Assembly: GCA_020848545.1 (NCBI GenBank)
Contig: JADLHZ010000090.1
Span: forward strand, 1 to 64,000
Direction: 5' to 3'
DNA: 64,000 bases
Source: Deltaproteobacteria bacterium
GTDB lineage: Bacteria > Myxococcota > JADLHZ01
Of the stretch, positions 40,251 through 50,773 are shown piece by piece; position 1 is the stretch's first letter, and the number at the start of each line of letters is the position of its first letter. Under the pieces are notes generated by a model that saw only the letters and a list, made by a program, of their open reading frames with translations, searched no databases and was not told the origin of the DNA. The position numbers were made by a program, and so were the translations under genes.

Positions 40251-40475
40251 ATGCAGACCCGGTGGTGGCTCGTACTGCTCGTGTCGTTGACGGCCTGTGA
40301 AGGCTCGTTCGGCGCGCCGCGGGCAAGCGTGGATCAGAAGGCGCTCCCGGGCCGGCCGCCTTTGGAAGCGCTCGAAGGTCCGCCGCTCAGGAGCTCGGTC
40401 GCGCGCCGTTCGAGCCGCCAAGAGCTCGCGCGCACGGTGCCGTCATCGTGTTCTGCATGGAGATTCTATGAATAG
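40251..40475 (+). CDS. small lipoprotein ORF, probably truncated by the IS element
   Basis: 74 aa from ATG 40251 with a short lipoprotein signal (MQTRWWLVLLVSLTACEG). The last codons run into the left end of the IS, and the TAG stop at 40473-40475 lies inside its inverted repeat, so the natural C-terminus is probably lost. No family is recognised. The gene, if real, was the upstream neighbour of the encapsulin operon before insertion. Confidence 0.4.
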   Translation: MQTRWWLVLLVSLTACEGSFGAPRASVDQKALPGRPPLEALEGPPLRSSVARRSSRQELARTVPSSCSAWRFYE

Positions 40476-40566
40476 GCCCCCGCCCGCGGACTTTTGACCG
40501 CCAAGCCTGATTGCCCAACTGTCGGTGCTGGATGAATTTCGGCACTGCCGAAGGAAGGGGCTTTCA

Positions 40567-41655
40567 GTGATCTACGTAGGAATGGACGTCAGCAGCAAGA
40601 GCTTTGTGGTGCACGCGATCGACGAGAGGAAGAAAGTGGTATTCGAGGGTGAAATCGCGCCGACGAGAGAGGGAATTCGAGAGCTGATCTCGAAGCTCGG
40701 CGCGCAGCCCAAGCTCGTCGTATTTGAGGCGGGTAACCAGATGAAATGGATCGCCGAGACGTTGAAGAAGCAGCCGAAGGTCGAGGTGCATGTGGTGCAT
40801 CCGAACGAGGTAAAGTGGATCGCGGAGAGCGGCGGCAAGAAGACGGATAAGGTTGACGCGAAGAAGCTGGCGCACTTGGCGCGTGGCGACATGTTGCCGC
40901 GCAAAGTGCACATCGTCGAAGGCCGCACGCGTGAGATGCGCGAGTTGGTGAGCGCGCGCGTGCAGCTCATGAACAAACGCGTGAGCATGATCAACACGCT
41001 GCGCGGCTACATCAAGCAAGAAGGCATCAGGCTCGGCGAGAAGTTCTTCGGACAAGAGGACTGGCAAGAGCAACTCGAGAAGAAGAAGGTCAGCGCACCG
41101 CTCAAGGCGATCATCAAGGCGTTTCGCTCGAGCATCGAAGCACTGTGCGACTCCGAGCACGAGATTGCCGAGCGGCTGACGAAGATCAAAGACGAGCGCA
41201 CCGAGCTACTCGAGACGATTCCTGCGATCGGCAAGCTGAGCTCACGCACGCTCGTATCGGCGATCGACGACGCCAAGCGCTTCGACAATCGCAAGGCCGT
41301 CGCCAACTACGGTGCGCTGACGCCCACGGTCTATCAGAGCGGTGATTCGGTGCAGATGGGTCGTATCAACCGCGACGGCCGCCACGAGGTGCGCCGCGTC
41401 ATGCTGCAGTGTGCGCACACCGTGGCCCGGATGAGCAGCCCTGCATCGAAGCCGCTGCGCACGTTCTTTGAGCGCATAGAGAAGAAGCGCGGGAAGAAGA
41501 AAGCCATCGTGGCGGTCGCCAGGAAGCTGCTGACCATCGCGTATGGTGTGTTGAAATCAGGCGAGCCGTTCGATCCGAAGAAGCTCGAGCCCTCGCCGGA
41601 ACCATCCAAGAAGACGACGCCAGCGGCACGCAAGTACGTGCTCAAGGCGGCGTAG
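40567..41655 (+). CDS. IS110-family DEDD transposase/recombinase
   Basis: 362 aa from GTG 40567, which has AAGGAAGGGG upstream. The N-terminal DEDD (RuvC-like) part shows GMDVSSKSF, VVFEAGNQMKW and KTDKVDAKKLAHLARGD. The C-terminal Transposase_20 region shows LLETIPAIGKLSSRTLVSAI and LTPTVYQSGDSVQMGRI with the conserved Ser. Length is near the family's usual ~340-400 aa and the frame is intact, so the element may be active. In this family recombination is directed by the element's own noncoding RNA. Confidence 0.95.
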   Translation: MIYVGMDVSSKSFVVHAIDERKKVVFEGEIAPTREGIRELISKLGAQPKLVVFEAGNQMKWIAETLKKQPKVEVHVVHPNEVKWIAESGGKKTDKVDAKKLAHLARGDMLPRKVHIVEGRTREMRELVSARVQLMNKRVSMINTLRGYIKQEGIRLGEKFFGQEDWQEQLEKKKVSAPLKAIIKAFRSSIEALCDSEHEIAERLTKIKDERTELLETIPAIGKLSSRTLVSAIDDAKRFDNRKAVANYGALTPTVYQSGDSVQMGRINRDGRHEVRRVMLQCAHTVARMSSPASKPLRTFFERIEKKRGKKKAIVAVARKLLTIAYGVLKSGEPFDPKKLEPSPEPSKKTTPAARKYVLKAA

Positions 41656-41873
41656 ACTTGGCGAAAAAGGAGACTCTCAGACGACGTTTTGACGCACCGA
41701 TGGCCGACGATATCAGCGAAGCCCGCATTGTCCTTGGTCGGTAGACCGCTCAGGAGATTGGGACAGCTGATTGGACCGGAATGATGGGCGTCAGAGCTCG
41801 AATGGGAGGTTAACGAGTCCATCCTTCGCATGGTGCGGAGGGGGAGAAATCGAATCGGCACTCGGTGCTTGAC
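41656..41873 (+). ncRNA. candidate bridge/seeker RNA region of the IS element
   Basis: 218 bp of noncoding DNA lie between the transposase stop and the right subterminal repeat. In IS1111-type elements this end encodes the guide RNA. I infer the RNA here from position only; exact ends and guide loops cannot be read by eye. Confidence 0.45.
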
Positions 41874-41898
41874 CGGGAGCCTATTCATGGGAGGTTTC

Positions 41899-42813
41899 AT
41901 GGCCGACAGTACTCCGCTGCCGCCGAGCATCGGCGAACGCGCCGCACGCCAGCTCTCGAACACCACGAAGACGCCGCCGCAATGGCGTGGCGCGACGCCG
42001 CGCTGGCTCGTGCAGATGCTGCCGTGGACCCCGGTCGAGGCGGGCGTCTACCGCGTGAACCAGGCGCTCGACGCGGAGTTTGGCGTCAAGTGCAGCCCGG
42101 AGCCGGGCGAAGAGCTGCCGATCGCGCTCAACGACTACGACGCGCAGCCGCGCGAGTACGTGCTGACCAACGTGACGACGACGATCGCCGTCGACACGCG
42201 CATCTCGGATCTCTTTCGCAGCCCGATGGACCAGGTGAAGGAGCAGCTCTCGCTGACCATCGAGAAGCTGAAGGAGAAGCAAGAGAACGAGATGCTCAAC
42301 AACCGCTCCTACGGCTTGTTGAACAACGTCGACCCCGACATGCGCATCAAGCCGAGGAAAGGCCCGCCGACGCCGGACGATCTCGACGAGCTCATCGCCA
42401 CGGTGTGGAAGGAGCCGTCGTTCTTCTTGGCCCATCCGCGCGCGATCGCCGCGTTCGGTCGCGAATGCACGCGCCGCGGGGTGCCGCCGCCGACGGTCAA
42501 CATGTTCGGCTCGCAGTTCCTCACCTGGCGCGGGCTGCCGCTCGTGCCGTCCGACAAGATGCCGTTGAAGGGCAACAAGACCGACCTCTTGCTGATGCGC
42601 ACCGGCGAACGGCGCCGCGGCGTCACAGGGCTGTTTCAGCCAGGCGTCCAGGGCGAAGTGTCGCCGAGCTTGTCGGTGCGCCCGATGGGCATCGCCCAGA
42701 CCGGCGCGGCGCAGTACCTGTTGTCGCTTTATTGCTCGGTCGCGGTGCTGACGCACGACGCGCTCGGCGTGCTCGACGGCGTGACGGTCGACCACTACCA
42801 TGACTACGCCTGA
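41899..42813 (+). CDS. family 2A-type encapsulin shell protein (SrpI-like)
   Basis: 304 aa from ATG 41899, with GGGAGG four bases upstream. The N-terminal family 2 signature is strong: ERAARQLSNTTKTPPQ, then PRWLVQMLPWTPVEAGVYRVN. The C-terminal half has VTGLFQPGVQGEVSPSLSV and VAVLTHDALGVLDGV, matching the HK97-fold shell protein. No cyclic-nucleotide-binding insert is present, which points to subtype 2A rather than 2B. It should self-assemble into a nanocompartment. The next gene, the cysteine desulfurase cargo, starts inside its last codons (14-bp overlap). Expression may depend on the IS element inserted just upstream. Confidence 0.9.
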   Translation: MADSTPLPPSIGERAARQLSNTTKTPPQWRGATPRWLVQMLPWTPVEAGVYRVNQALDAEFGVKCSPEPGEELPIALNDYDAQPREYVLTNVTTTIAVDTRISDLFRSPMDQVKEQLSLTIEKLKEKQENEMLNNRSYGLLNNVDPDMRIKPRKGPPTPDDLDELIATVWKEPSFFLAHPRAIAAFGRECTRRGVPPPTVNMFGSQFLTWRGLPLVPSDKMPLKGNKTDLLLMRTGERRRGVTGLFQPGVQGEVSPSLSVRPMGIAQTGAAQYLLSLYCSVAVLTHDALGVLDGVTVDHYHDYA

Positions 42814-44467
42814 GTGGACTTCGAACGGCGCGCCCTCGTCGCCGCCGACGCCGGGCCTCTCGCCGAGCGTCGTGAAGCACCCAGCCGCGCCGACGATGCC
42901 GGATCCTGAGCCGACCACGATCGCGCAGCAGATCATGCAGCTCGCGTCTGGGAACGGCACTCCTTCACCACCGCTCGTCCCGCAGCCGCCGATCTCCACG
43001 TTGCCGTCGTCCTCGCTGGCGTCGCCGTCACTGGCAGTCGCACCCGCGGCCGCGTCGCCGTTCTTCATGCCGCTGCAATTCTCCGTGCTCCCCGATCTCT
43101 CGGCGATCTTCGGCACGATGAGCTTCCCGCTCGTCGACGCACCCCAGGCGCAAGCGCAGCCACAAACGCCGAACGCGCCGGACATCCGCACCGACTCCCT
43201 CACCCTCGATCCCGCGCTGCCGAAAAGCTCCCAACCCCGCGGCGCCTTCGATCCGCACTTCGTCCGCGCCGAATTCCCGATCCTCAAAGAACGCGTGAAC
43301 GGCCGCGAGATCGTCTGGCTCGACAACGCCGCCACCACGCAAAAACCGCAGACCGTCCTCGATCGTCTGTCGCATTTCTACGCCCACGAAAACTCGAACG
43401 TGCACCGCGCCGCGCACACCCTCGCCGCGCGCGCGACGACGGCCTACGAAAACGCCCGCGCGATCGTCGCCGGCTTCTTGAACGCGCGATCGTCGCGCGA
43501 CATCGTCTTCGTCCGCGGCGCCACCGAGGGCATCAACCTCGTCGCCAAGAGCTGGGGCGCGCGTCACGTTGGAGAAGGCGACGAGATCGTCATCACGCAC
43601 CTCGAGCACCACGCGAACATCGTGCCGTGGCAGATGCTCTGCAACGACAAGAAGGCGAAGCTGCGCGTCGCGCCGGTCGACGATCGCGGACAGATCATCC
43701 TCGACGAATACGAAAAGCTCCTCGGCCCGAGGACGAAGCTCGTCTCGTTCTCGCAGGTGTCGAACGCGCTCGGCACGATCACGCCGGCCAAAGCCATGGT
43801 CGACATGGCGCACCGTCACGGCGCCAAGGTGCTCGTCGACGGCGCGCAAGCGGTCTCGCACATGCCTGTAGACGTGCAGGGGCTCGACTGCGACTTCTAC
43901 GCGTTCTCGGGCCACAAGGTCTTCGCGCCGACGGGCATCGGCGTCGTGTTCGGCAAGAGCGAGCTCTTGGACGGGACGCCGCCGTGGCAGGGCGGCGGCA
44001 ACATGATCCAAGACGTGACCTTCGAACGGACGACGTATCAGCCGGCGCCGGCGCGCTTCGAAGCCGGCACTGGCAACATCGCCGACGCGGTCGGGCTGGG
44101 CGCCGCCCTCGAATGGCTGAGCGCGCTCGGGTTGCAGAACGTCGAGCGCTACGAGCACGAGCTGCTCGAGTACGCGACGGGCAAGCTGCTCTCCGTCCCC
44201 GGCCTGCACATCATCGGCACCGCCGCGGAGAAGGCCGGCGTCATCTCGTTCATCCTCGACGGCCAGAAAACCGAGGAGCTCTCGGGCTTGCTCGATCGCG
44301 AAGGCATCGCCGTCCGCTCGGGGCACCACTGCGCACAGCCGATCTTGCGGCGCTTCGGCGTCGAAGCGACCGTGCGCGCGTCGCTCGCGCCGTACAACAC
44401 GGTCGACGACGTCGACGCTCTGTGCGCGGCGCTGCATCGGCTTCAAGCCGGCCGTCCGGTGCGCTGA
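42800..44467 (+). CDS. cysteine desulfurase with N-terminal encapsulation extension
   Basis: 555 aa. From ~150 onward it is a class II SufS-type PLP cysteine desulfurase: VWLDNAATTQKP, ENSNVHRAAHTLA, the PLP Lys K373 in YAFSGHKVFAPTG and the catalytic C511 in RSGHHCAQPILRRFG. Residues 1-~145 are a disordered, Pro/Ser/Ala-rich extension absent from SufS; it holds hydrophobic patches (IAQQIMQLASGNG, PLQFSVLPDLSAIFGTM) likely to bind the shell interior. This is the known cargo type of family 2A encapsulins. The enzyme releases persulfide sulfur from cysteine. The stop overlaps the next start. Confidence 0.93.
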   Translation: MTTPEWTSNGAPSSPPTPGLSPSVVKHPAAPTMPDPEPTTIAQQIMQLASGNGTPSPPLVPQPPISTLPSSSLASPSLAVAPAAASPFFMPLQFSVLPDLSAIFGTMSFPLVDAPQAQAQPQTPNAPDIRTDSLTLDPALPKSSQPRGAFDPHFVRAEFPILKERVNGREIVWLDNAATTQKPQTVLDRLSHFYAHENSNVHRAAHTLAARATTAYENARAIVAGFLNARSSRDIVFVRGATEGINLVAKSWGARHVGEGDEIVITHLEHHANIVPWQMLCNDKKAKLRVAPVDDRGQIILDEYEKLLGPRTKLVSFSQVSNALGTITPAKAMVDMAHRHGAKVLVDGAQAVSHMPVDVQGLDCDFYAFSGHKVFAPTGIGVVFGKSELLDGTPPWQGGGNMIQDVTFERTTYQPAPARFEAGTGNIADAVGLGAALEWLSALGLQNVERYEHELLEYATGKLLSVPGLHIIGTAAEKAGVISFILDGQKTEELSGLLDREGIAVRSGHHCAQPILRRFGVEATVRASLAPYNTVDDVDALCAALHRLQAGRPVR

Positions 44468-45393
44468 TGGTCCGCACGCTGTCGCCGAAGGAAGCGCAGG
44501 CGTTGCTCAGCAAAGGCGGCGTGGATCTCGTCGACGTGCGCGATCCGAACGAATGGGCGACGGGACACCTGCCAGGCGCGCGCTTGGTGCCGCTCGCCCA
44601 GCTGAAAGCGGACGCGAAGCCGCACCTGCCGAGCCCGCGCGTCGTCTTCGTTTGCGCGAAGGGCGGCCGCTCGATGACCGCGGCCAAGATCGCCGACGAG
44701 CTCGGGCTCGAAGAAGTCTACAGCCTCGACGGCGGCACCATCGGCTGGGCGAACGCCGGCTTGCCGCTCGACGGGCTGCCGGTGAAGACCGCGACGGTCG
44801 CGACGCCGCCGCCTGCGAGTGACCCGAGCGAGCCGGAGATCGGCCTCGACGGCATCGTCGGCACGAACGTGCGCGAGCTCCGCGCGAAGAAGGGCTACAC
44901 GCTCGACGTGCTGGCGAAGATGACCGGGCTTTCGCGCCAGCTCCTCGGCCAGATCGAGCTCGGCAGAACGGCGCCGAGCGTGAGCGTCGTGTGGAAGGTC
45001 GCGCGCGCGTTCGAGGTGCCGTTCTCGGCGCTGCTCGCGACGCCGGGAAAAGTCGAGACCAAGGTCTTGCCGAGCGCGACGGCGAAGCGCTTGGTAAGCG
45101 CCGACGGCCGCTACAGCTCGCGCGCGCTCTTTCCCTTCGGCGAGCAGCAGCGCGTCGAGTTCTACGAGCTGCGCCTCGCCGGCCACTCACGCGAAGACGC
45201 CGAGCCGCACGCCCCGGGCACCCGGGAGAACCTGGTCGTCGTCAGCGGCCGCCTCGACGTCGAGCTCTCCGGCGAGCGGCACTCGCTCAACAAAGGCGAC
45301 GCCATCGTCTTTGGCGCCGACGTCGCGCACAGCTACGTCAATCCGGGCAGCGAAGAGTGCTTCATGCACCTCGTGATGACCTACGCGACCTGA
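44467..45393 (+). CDS. rhodanese - XRE HTH - cupin fusion
   Basis: 308 aa. Residues ~1-105 form a rhodanese domain with the catalytic Cys C63 in VVFVCAKGGRSM, which could carry persulfide. Residues ~130-190 form an XRE/Cro-type helix-turn-helix (IVGTNVRELRAKKGYTLDVL, with MTGLSRQLLGQIELGRTAPS). The last ~85 residues are a cupin (RENLVVVSGRLDVELSGE, DAIVFGADVAHSYVN). HTH-cupin proteins are transcription factors; the joined rhodanese suggests sulfur-state sensing or sulfur delivery. Start TGATG overlaps the desulfurase stop by one base. I infer control of the encapsulin operon. Confidence 0.88.
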   Translation: MVRTLSPKEAQALLSKGGVDLVDVRDPNEWATGHLPGARLVPLAQLKADAKPHLPSPRVVFVCAKGGRSMTAAKIADELGLEEVYSLDGGTIGWANAGLPLDGLPVKTATVATPPPASDPSEPEIGLDGIVGTNVRELRAKKGYTLDVLAKMTGLSRQLLGQIELGRTAPSVSVVWKVARAFEVPFSALLATPGKVETKVLPSATAKRLVSADGRYSSRALFPFGEQQRVEFYELRLAGHSREDAEPHAPGTRENLVVVSGRLDVELSGERHSLNKGDAIVFGADVAHSYVNPGSEECFMHLVMTYAT

Positions 45394-46049: not shown

Positions 46050-49687
<3,638 letters not shown>

Positions 49688-49691
<4 letters not shown>

Positions 49692-50626
49692 TTTCGGGCT
49701 CTCGCTTTTTCGGCAAAGGCGGTGAGGACGTGAAAGTGCGGCTCGCGCTTCTCGCGCATGACGACGCCGACGTGATCGACTTCGAGGCCGGCGCCCTTCA
49801 GGAGCTTCGTGAGCGCCGCCTCGGTGAAGCCGAGGTTCACGTGCTGGTATGAGGCGACGAGCTCGCTGTGGTCATGCGCAGCGAGCGTGACGGCGACGAG
49901 CTTGCCGCCGGGCTTCATCACTCGCGCGGCCTCGCTCACGGCGCGCGCCGGCTTGTGCGCATAGGAGAGGACGTTGAAGAGCAGCACTTGGTCGAAGGTG
50001 TGCTCTTCGAAGGGCAGCTCGTGCGCGTCGCCTTGCTGGAAACGGACGTTCTTCTGCCCTTCGAGGCGTGCCTTCGCCGCGACGAGCATCTTCTCGCTGC
50101 GATCGATGCAGGTGACGGACTTGCTGCGCGGCGCGAGCATCTGCGCGATCGCCCCGTCGCCCGAACCCACGTCCAGCACGTCGCCGAGCGAGAGCAAGCC
50201 GAGCAGGCCGCGGGCGTACGCTTCCCACGTGCGGCCCGGCGAGTAGTGACGCTCCATTTCGCCGGCGAACGCCTCCGGCCATGCGGCACCAGCACGCGAA
50301 CGGATCAGCGCATCGCGGCGGCCGCGATCGCTCGCGAAGTGGCCGTCGTCGAGGGCGCCGCGGGCAGCGTGCCAGAGCTTCTTCGCATCGTCCGCGAGCG
50401 TCGCTTCGGTGAAGGAATAATAGGTCGCGGTCCCGGCCTTGCGATCCCGCAGCACGCCGGCGTCACGCAAGCGGCCGAGGTGCGTCGAGACCCGCGATTG
50501 GGCGAGCTCGGTCACCGTCGTGATCTCGGCGACGGTGAGCTCGTTGGCTTCGAGGAGCACCAGCAGGCGCAGGCGCGTTGGCTCACCGAAGAGCTGCATG
50601 AGGTCTGCGATCTGCGCGACGGACAC
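49688..50626 (-). CDS. ArsR-type regulator fused to SAM methyltransferase
   Basis: 312 aa from GTG 50626. Residues ~1-90 are an ArsR/SmtB winged helix ([39 protein letters not shown]). Residues ~130-310 form a class I methyltransferase with [33 protein letters not shown] and [11 protein letters not shown]. Such fusions stand beside metH in several bacteria and, with SahR-type regulators, may sense SAM or SAH to control the methyl cycle. The longer frame starts at a TTG upstream of an AT-rich promoter-like patch, so GTG is preferred. It is coupled to metH. Confidence 0.88.
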
Positions 50627-50640
50627 CCGTGAATCACTCC

Positions 50641-50662
50641 ATCTTGATTTATTGATACTAGC
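50641..50662 (-). promoter_or_regulatory. AT-rich promoter/operator patch before the ArsR-methyltransferase gene
   Basis: In otherwise GC-rich DNA this stretch carries TTGAT twice (50644-50648 and 50652-50656) about 15-35 bp from the GTG start. It is a candidate promoter with an ArsR-type binding site; the exact elements are uncertain. Confidence 0.4.
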
Positions 50663-50773
50663 CGCTAAGTGCGGGTTTTTCAAGGGTTCGCAGCGAAAGC
50701 GGAGATACAGAACCTAAGCGGCGGCGCACGATTCATTGGCGCGTTCGACACCGCGGCTGGCAGACTCCACCGA

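Follow-up and report, generated by a model that had tools for sequence, protein, structure and literature searches.

How sulfur leaves family 2A encapsulin compartments, and how a full or an empty store is sensed, is to our knowledge not settled. Storage of elemental sulfur by these encapsulins is reportedly the topic of a study, which is not used as evidence here. Family 2A operons with a cysteine desulfurase cargo number >1000, and serine O-acetyltransferase and rhodanese genes are their most enriched accessory genes (PMC8346489). In the SrpI/CyD system of Synechococcus elongatus, sulfate starvation induces the shell protein SrpI, and a disordered N terminus mediates loading of the desulfurase; the docking motifs of the cargo are LARLANEFFS and AASPYYFLDG, and F262 and Y273 of SrpI lie near the cargo (PMC8049743; 6x8m, 6x8t). 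Many Pseudomonadota 2A operons contain genes for shell, desulfurase, rhodanese, and a helix-turn-helix (HTH) protein, commonly in the order rhodanese, serine acetyltransferase, (HTH protein of ~90 aa), shell, and desulfurase, with no fusion seen. Sulfane sulfur is sensed by the regulator SqrR via a polysulfide link between two cysteines (PMC10044876).

The window, i.e., the whole stretch of 64,000 nucleotides analyzed here, comes from a Myxococcota genome. As in SrpI/CyD, it encodes a desulfurase with an N-terminal cargo-loading region adjoining the shell gene, but its operon has no serine acetyltransferase or cysK gene and its rhodanese is fused to a regulator rather than encoded separately. 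In Pseudomonadota, by contrast, rhodanese and HTH proteins are encoded by separate genes upstream of the shell gene, and the HTH protein lacks a cupin domain. The shell-desulfurase core of the locus is already known; the new part is a lineage-specific rhodanese-XRE-cupin fusion. The features are as follows.

40459 to 41894, + strand: IS110-family insertion element (copies elsewhere in the same genome; NF033542; inverted repeats)
41899 to 42813, + strand: family 2A encapsulin shell, 304 aa, ATG at 41899 (NF041162, PF19307, and solved-shell matches)
42800 to 44467, + strand: SufS-type cysteine desulfurase cargo, 555 aa (NF041166; active-site residues)
42800 to 43219, + strand: low-complexity N-terminal region of the desulfurase, predicted to load cargo, 140 aa (outside the NF041166 match)
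44467 to 45393, + strand: rhodanese-XRE-cupin regulator, 308 aa (Pfam; 13-row and 45-row alignments; structure model)

The operon and its shell-cargo interface

The initial annotation described three overlapping genes in one unit, and all are present in the order shell, desulfurase, regulator on the + strand. The desulfurase start overlaps the shell end by 14 nt, and the regulator start shares 1 nt with the desulfurase stop (TGATG). None of the three frames is interrupted, and the catalytic residues are retained. A search for the same three-gene set, proposed in that annotation, found it contiguous in 11 other Myxococcota genomes, and the arrangement is therefore not due to chance. The chromosomal setting had also been called unusual, which was not borne out, as 2A operons of the surveyed Pseudomonadota genomes are on chromosome-size contigs. 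The genes that follow closely (46050 to 50683), metH and an ArsR-methyltransferase fusion, point the other way and form a sulfur-related neighborhood; a link of the operon to these genes was rejected, as such neighbors are not conserved at other operons.

Assignment of the core to family 2A with desulfurase cargo is secure, since shell and cargo both exceed the NCBI equivalog cut-offs. The shell scores 466 bits against NF041162 (cut-off, 380) and 396 bits against the 2B model, under its cut-off of 400. Its sole domain match is PF19307 (E = 7e-93), and it has no cNMP-binding domain, the feature that divides 2A from 2B. Alignment with known 2A shells gave 61% identity to SrpI over 303 aa, and the protein aligns almost end to end with the solved structures 8t6r and 6x8m (E about 1e-120); by homology to these, it is an HK97-fold protein. 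Against NF041166, which models the family 2A cargo, the desulfurase reaches 811 bits (cut-off, 800), and its PLP lysine (Lys373) and catalytic cysteine (Cys511) are in place. The match begins at residue 141 and leaves the first 140 residues, which are rich in Pro, Ala, and Ser, outside the model. In the shell tree, Myxococcota-type shells form one clade (100/100), joined at 99/97 to a sister group that takes in Azospirillum, Methylosinus, and one further genome (G046). Branch lengths of the window proteins are not raised in either the shell or the regulator tree.

The shell-cargo interface differs from that of SrpI/CyD. The pore residues G194 and P196 and also Y273 are retained in the window shell, whereas F262 is replaced by P, a residue found in no other shell compared. 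The other 17 members of the Myxococcota shell clade have L or M at position 262, and the remaining 2A shells compared have F; the few matches with Y are 2B-like shells. The position belongs to the interface and is not diagnostic of the family. Among the N termini of 42 desulfurases (window included), most of those from the lineage carry TPG....PTLPe.DP before a LANELF-like motif, with SPF..PL.F.. replacing SPYYFLDG. The first docking motif of S. elongatus is not recognizable in the window cargo, where it is degenerate (IAQQIMQLASG, with IMQLASG at the LANELF position), and the second, AASPFFMPLQF, resembles AASPYYFLDG. Judging from these alignments, shell position 262 and the cargo motifs look as though they have changed together, and they may mark a second mode of docking that could serve orthogonal cargo loading. 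A candidate duplicated docking motif in one related locus (L085) was dropped, as the sequence has one motif copy only. The 2A desulfurase of another genome (G306; L146, 9722 to 10901) matches as two segments joined out of frame and is frameshifted or misassembled.

The fused regulator and its distribution

Rhodanese, HTH_3, and Cupin_2 domains of the regulator each exceed the Pfam cut-offs. The rhodanese loop, Cys63-A-K-G-G-R-S, fits the CxxGxRS active-site pattern, and Cys63, G66, R68, and S69 are invariant across all alignment rows. The HTH is of the XRE type and not of the ArsR fold that characterizes SqrR/BigR. Fold and profile searches gave the XRE-cupin protein 1y9q as the best match of the XRE-cupin part, and YgaP-like rhodaneses are also among the best matches. 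The predicted structure consists of rhodanese, helical HTH, and beta-barrel domains, with good local confidence (mean pLDDT, 80) and a pTM of 0.37; at that pTM the placement of the domains is uncertain, and the distance between Cys63 and Cys298 was rejected as unreadable. A search of the accessible literature for a rhodanese-XRE-cupin regulator found no paper.

The window regulator has only two cysteines, Cys63 and Cys298 (in the cupin), and these are the sole cysteines in 12 of the 13 full-length fused proteins. In the 45-row alignment, Cys298 occurs in 17/17 fused proteins and in 0/28 stand-alone relatives. Invariance in fused proteins combined with rarity (at most 2/10) in stand-alone ones is seen in just five columns of the XRE-cupin part, Cys298 and four others, so the Cys298 signal is specific. 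The likely metal ligands H248, E254, and H288 are retained in all fused rows. In the tree of all 45 XRE-cupin domains, the 17 fused ones group in a single clade (100/99). Because Cys298 arose once, on one branch, its signal rests on a single evolutionary event, and inheritance could account for its invariance.

A genome-wide search with the regulator as query, which detects close relatives only and could miss distant fusions, found 15 fused loci, all in Myxococcota or unclassified deltaproteobacterial MAGs. With the window and one further genome (G069), this gives 17 genomes, every one of which also has a 2A shell. Shell, desulfurase, and regulator are contiguous and on the same strand in 12 of them (window included). 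Pieces of the operon lie at or near contig ends in three (G196, G198, and G069), the regulator lies ~11 kb past the desulfurase on the same contig in one (G195), and it is on a different contig from the shell genes in one (G184). Across the phylum, a shell above the 2A cut-off was found in 12/195 genomes; the remaining matches are below it, leave the first part of the 2A model unmatched in their main piece, and look like 2B shells. The fused regulator is not indispensable, as one genome (G146) keeps shell and desulfurase, with no fused regulator found. In two MAGs (L093 and L095), the regulator appears to be broken between rhodanese and XRE-cupin, and assembly errors or early decay are likely. 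The three-gene composition, initially described as unusual, is the standard form in one Myxococcota lineage and not unique to the window genome; three features do set the locus apart, namely its fused regulator, its altered shell-cargo interface, and an insertion element at the ribosome-binding site.

Possible forerunners of the fusion are found in the sister group. The Azospirillum plasmid 2A operon has a divergent XRE-cupin gene beside the shell gene, 37% identical to the C-terminal part of the window regulator over 188 aa, but without a rhodanese domain or Cys298 and with the likely metal ligands lost. Methylosinus has a cupin piece at 44% identity, and G046 has a divergent stand-alone rhodanese by the shell gene, 60% identical to the fused domain. 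As XRE-cupin or rhodanese genes lie beside sister-clade shells, the two parts of the fusion were most likely associated with 2A operons before they were joined.

The IS110 element upstream of the shell gene

The IS110 element was missing from the initial annotation. It matches NF033542 (234 bits), has subterminal inverted repeats (40468 to 40482 and 41874 to 41888), and carries a transposase gene that points toward the operon. Its ends, 40459 and 41894, were mapped against four other contigs of the same genome (C27, C63, C91, and C35). The right end of the element, which reads GGGAGG, stops 4 bp short of the shell ATG and appears to provide the ribosome-binding site of this gene, a site that thus derives from the element or from its target core. 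With the element end so close to the start codon, the native promoter has probably been displaced from the operon in this genome; either it lies 1.4 kb upstream or a rearrangement has removed it. With a repeated element in an assembly of 163 contigs, the join at the left end is less secure than that at the right. A short lipoprotein-like open reading frame (MQTRWWLVLLVSLTACEG..., 40251 to 40475) runs into the left end and may be what remains of a gene cut short by the insertion or by rearrangement.

All three copies of the element compared (in the window and on contigs C27 and C63) end in GGGAGG 4 to 5 nt before an ATG in the same direction, and the open reading frames that follow were open in both copies checked. 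It is as if the element targeted Shine-Dalgarno sequences and rebuilt them, a pattern for which a literature search found nothing.

Proposed sulfur sensing and alternative explanations

We consider it moderately likely that the locus is a Myxococcota-specific variant of the 2A sulfur nanocompartment, in which a fused sulfur acceptor and regulator reads compartment sulfur and tunes the operon. From homology to SrpI/CyD, we infer that the shell assembles into a small icosahedral compartment for sulfur storage, that the disordered N terminus carries the desulfurase inside, and that the desulfurase strips sulfur from cysteine. The third protein would unite in one chain a sulfur-accepting rhodanese and an XRE-cupin DNA-binding regulator, which are separate in other 2A operons. 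Most likely, Cys63 of the rhodanese would accept sulfane sulfur that the compartment produces or lets go and hand it to Cys298 of the cupin, or a polysulfide bridge would form between the two; sulfur on Cys298, or the bridge, would alter DNA binding. The relay, its DNA target, and the direction of regulation are likewise predictions. If they are correct, the regulator could read the sulfur state of the cell and control the shell accordingly.

As Cys63 and Cys298 are usually the sole cysteines of the protein, they suggest a persulfide relay sensor. The initial proposal that the regulator may carry persulfide is plausible in this respect and is backed by the invariant Cys63 loop and by the equally invariant Cys298; regulation and persulfide transfer themselves are putative. 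SqrR/BigR regulators sense sulfane sulfur through a cysteine pair, as proposed here (PMC10044876), but they have the ArsR fold, no rhodanese-XRE-cupin fusion, and no nanocompartment; by analogy, SqrR offers a precedent for the mechanism and is not kin. Counting against the main reading are the single origin of Cys298, the shell-desulfurase pair of G146, the failure to find a common operator (below), and the probable separation of the window operon from its promoter by IS110. A natural fusion of sulfur acceptor and DNA-binding sensor points to a direct link between the exit of sulfur from the store and the sensing of its state. A stronger version is possible, if doubtful: an undescribed class of one-protein sulfane-sulfur sensors in which the relay from Cys63 to Cys298 reads the output of the encapsulin store and controls the store operon, in Myxococcota with a changed docking site.

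Ordinary XRE-cupin regulators are thought to sense a small molecule or a metal, and the cupin studied here might do the same with cysteine, O-acetylserine, or iron, with the rhodanese a sulfur acceptor fused to it for equal amounts and Cys298 a structural residue. H248, E254, and H288 are indeed kept in nearly all XRE-cupins, fused or not, and rhodanese is, with serine O-acetyltransferase, among the commonest 2A accessory genes (PMC8346489). We regard this explanation as somewhat unlikely, as it leaves the arrival of Cys298 with the fusion, and its retention in 17/17 proteins, unexplained. The regulator might also act on other sulfur genes and not on the shell operon, traveling with the latter because it uses compartment-delivered sulfur. 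Detachment of the regulator from the shell genes in G184 and G195 fits such a role, as does the lack of a common operator: in the regions preceding 17 related shell genes, no common operator or palindrome stood out above shuffles. Contiguity on one strand in 12 genomes argues against it, and we judge it unlikely. In one relative (L094), two copies of the inverted repeat AGCCGT-GCCA-ACGGCT precede the shell start, absent from relatives.

The locus might also be switched off or decaying in this genome, with its promoter cut off by the IS110 end 4 bp before the ATG, its first cargo motif degenerate (IAQQIMQLASG), and a proline at position 262 that no other shell compared has. This is distinctly unlikely: no frame of the three is broken, the catalytic residues remain, the window proteins do not sit on lengthened branches, and the IS110 end itself supplies GGAGG, with the transposase gene directed at the operon.
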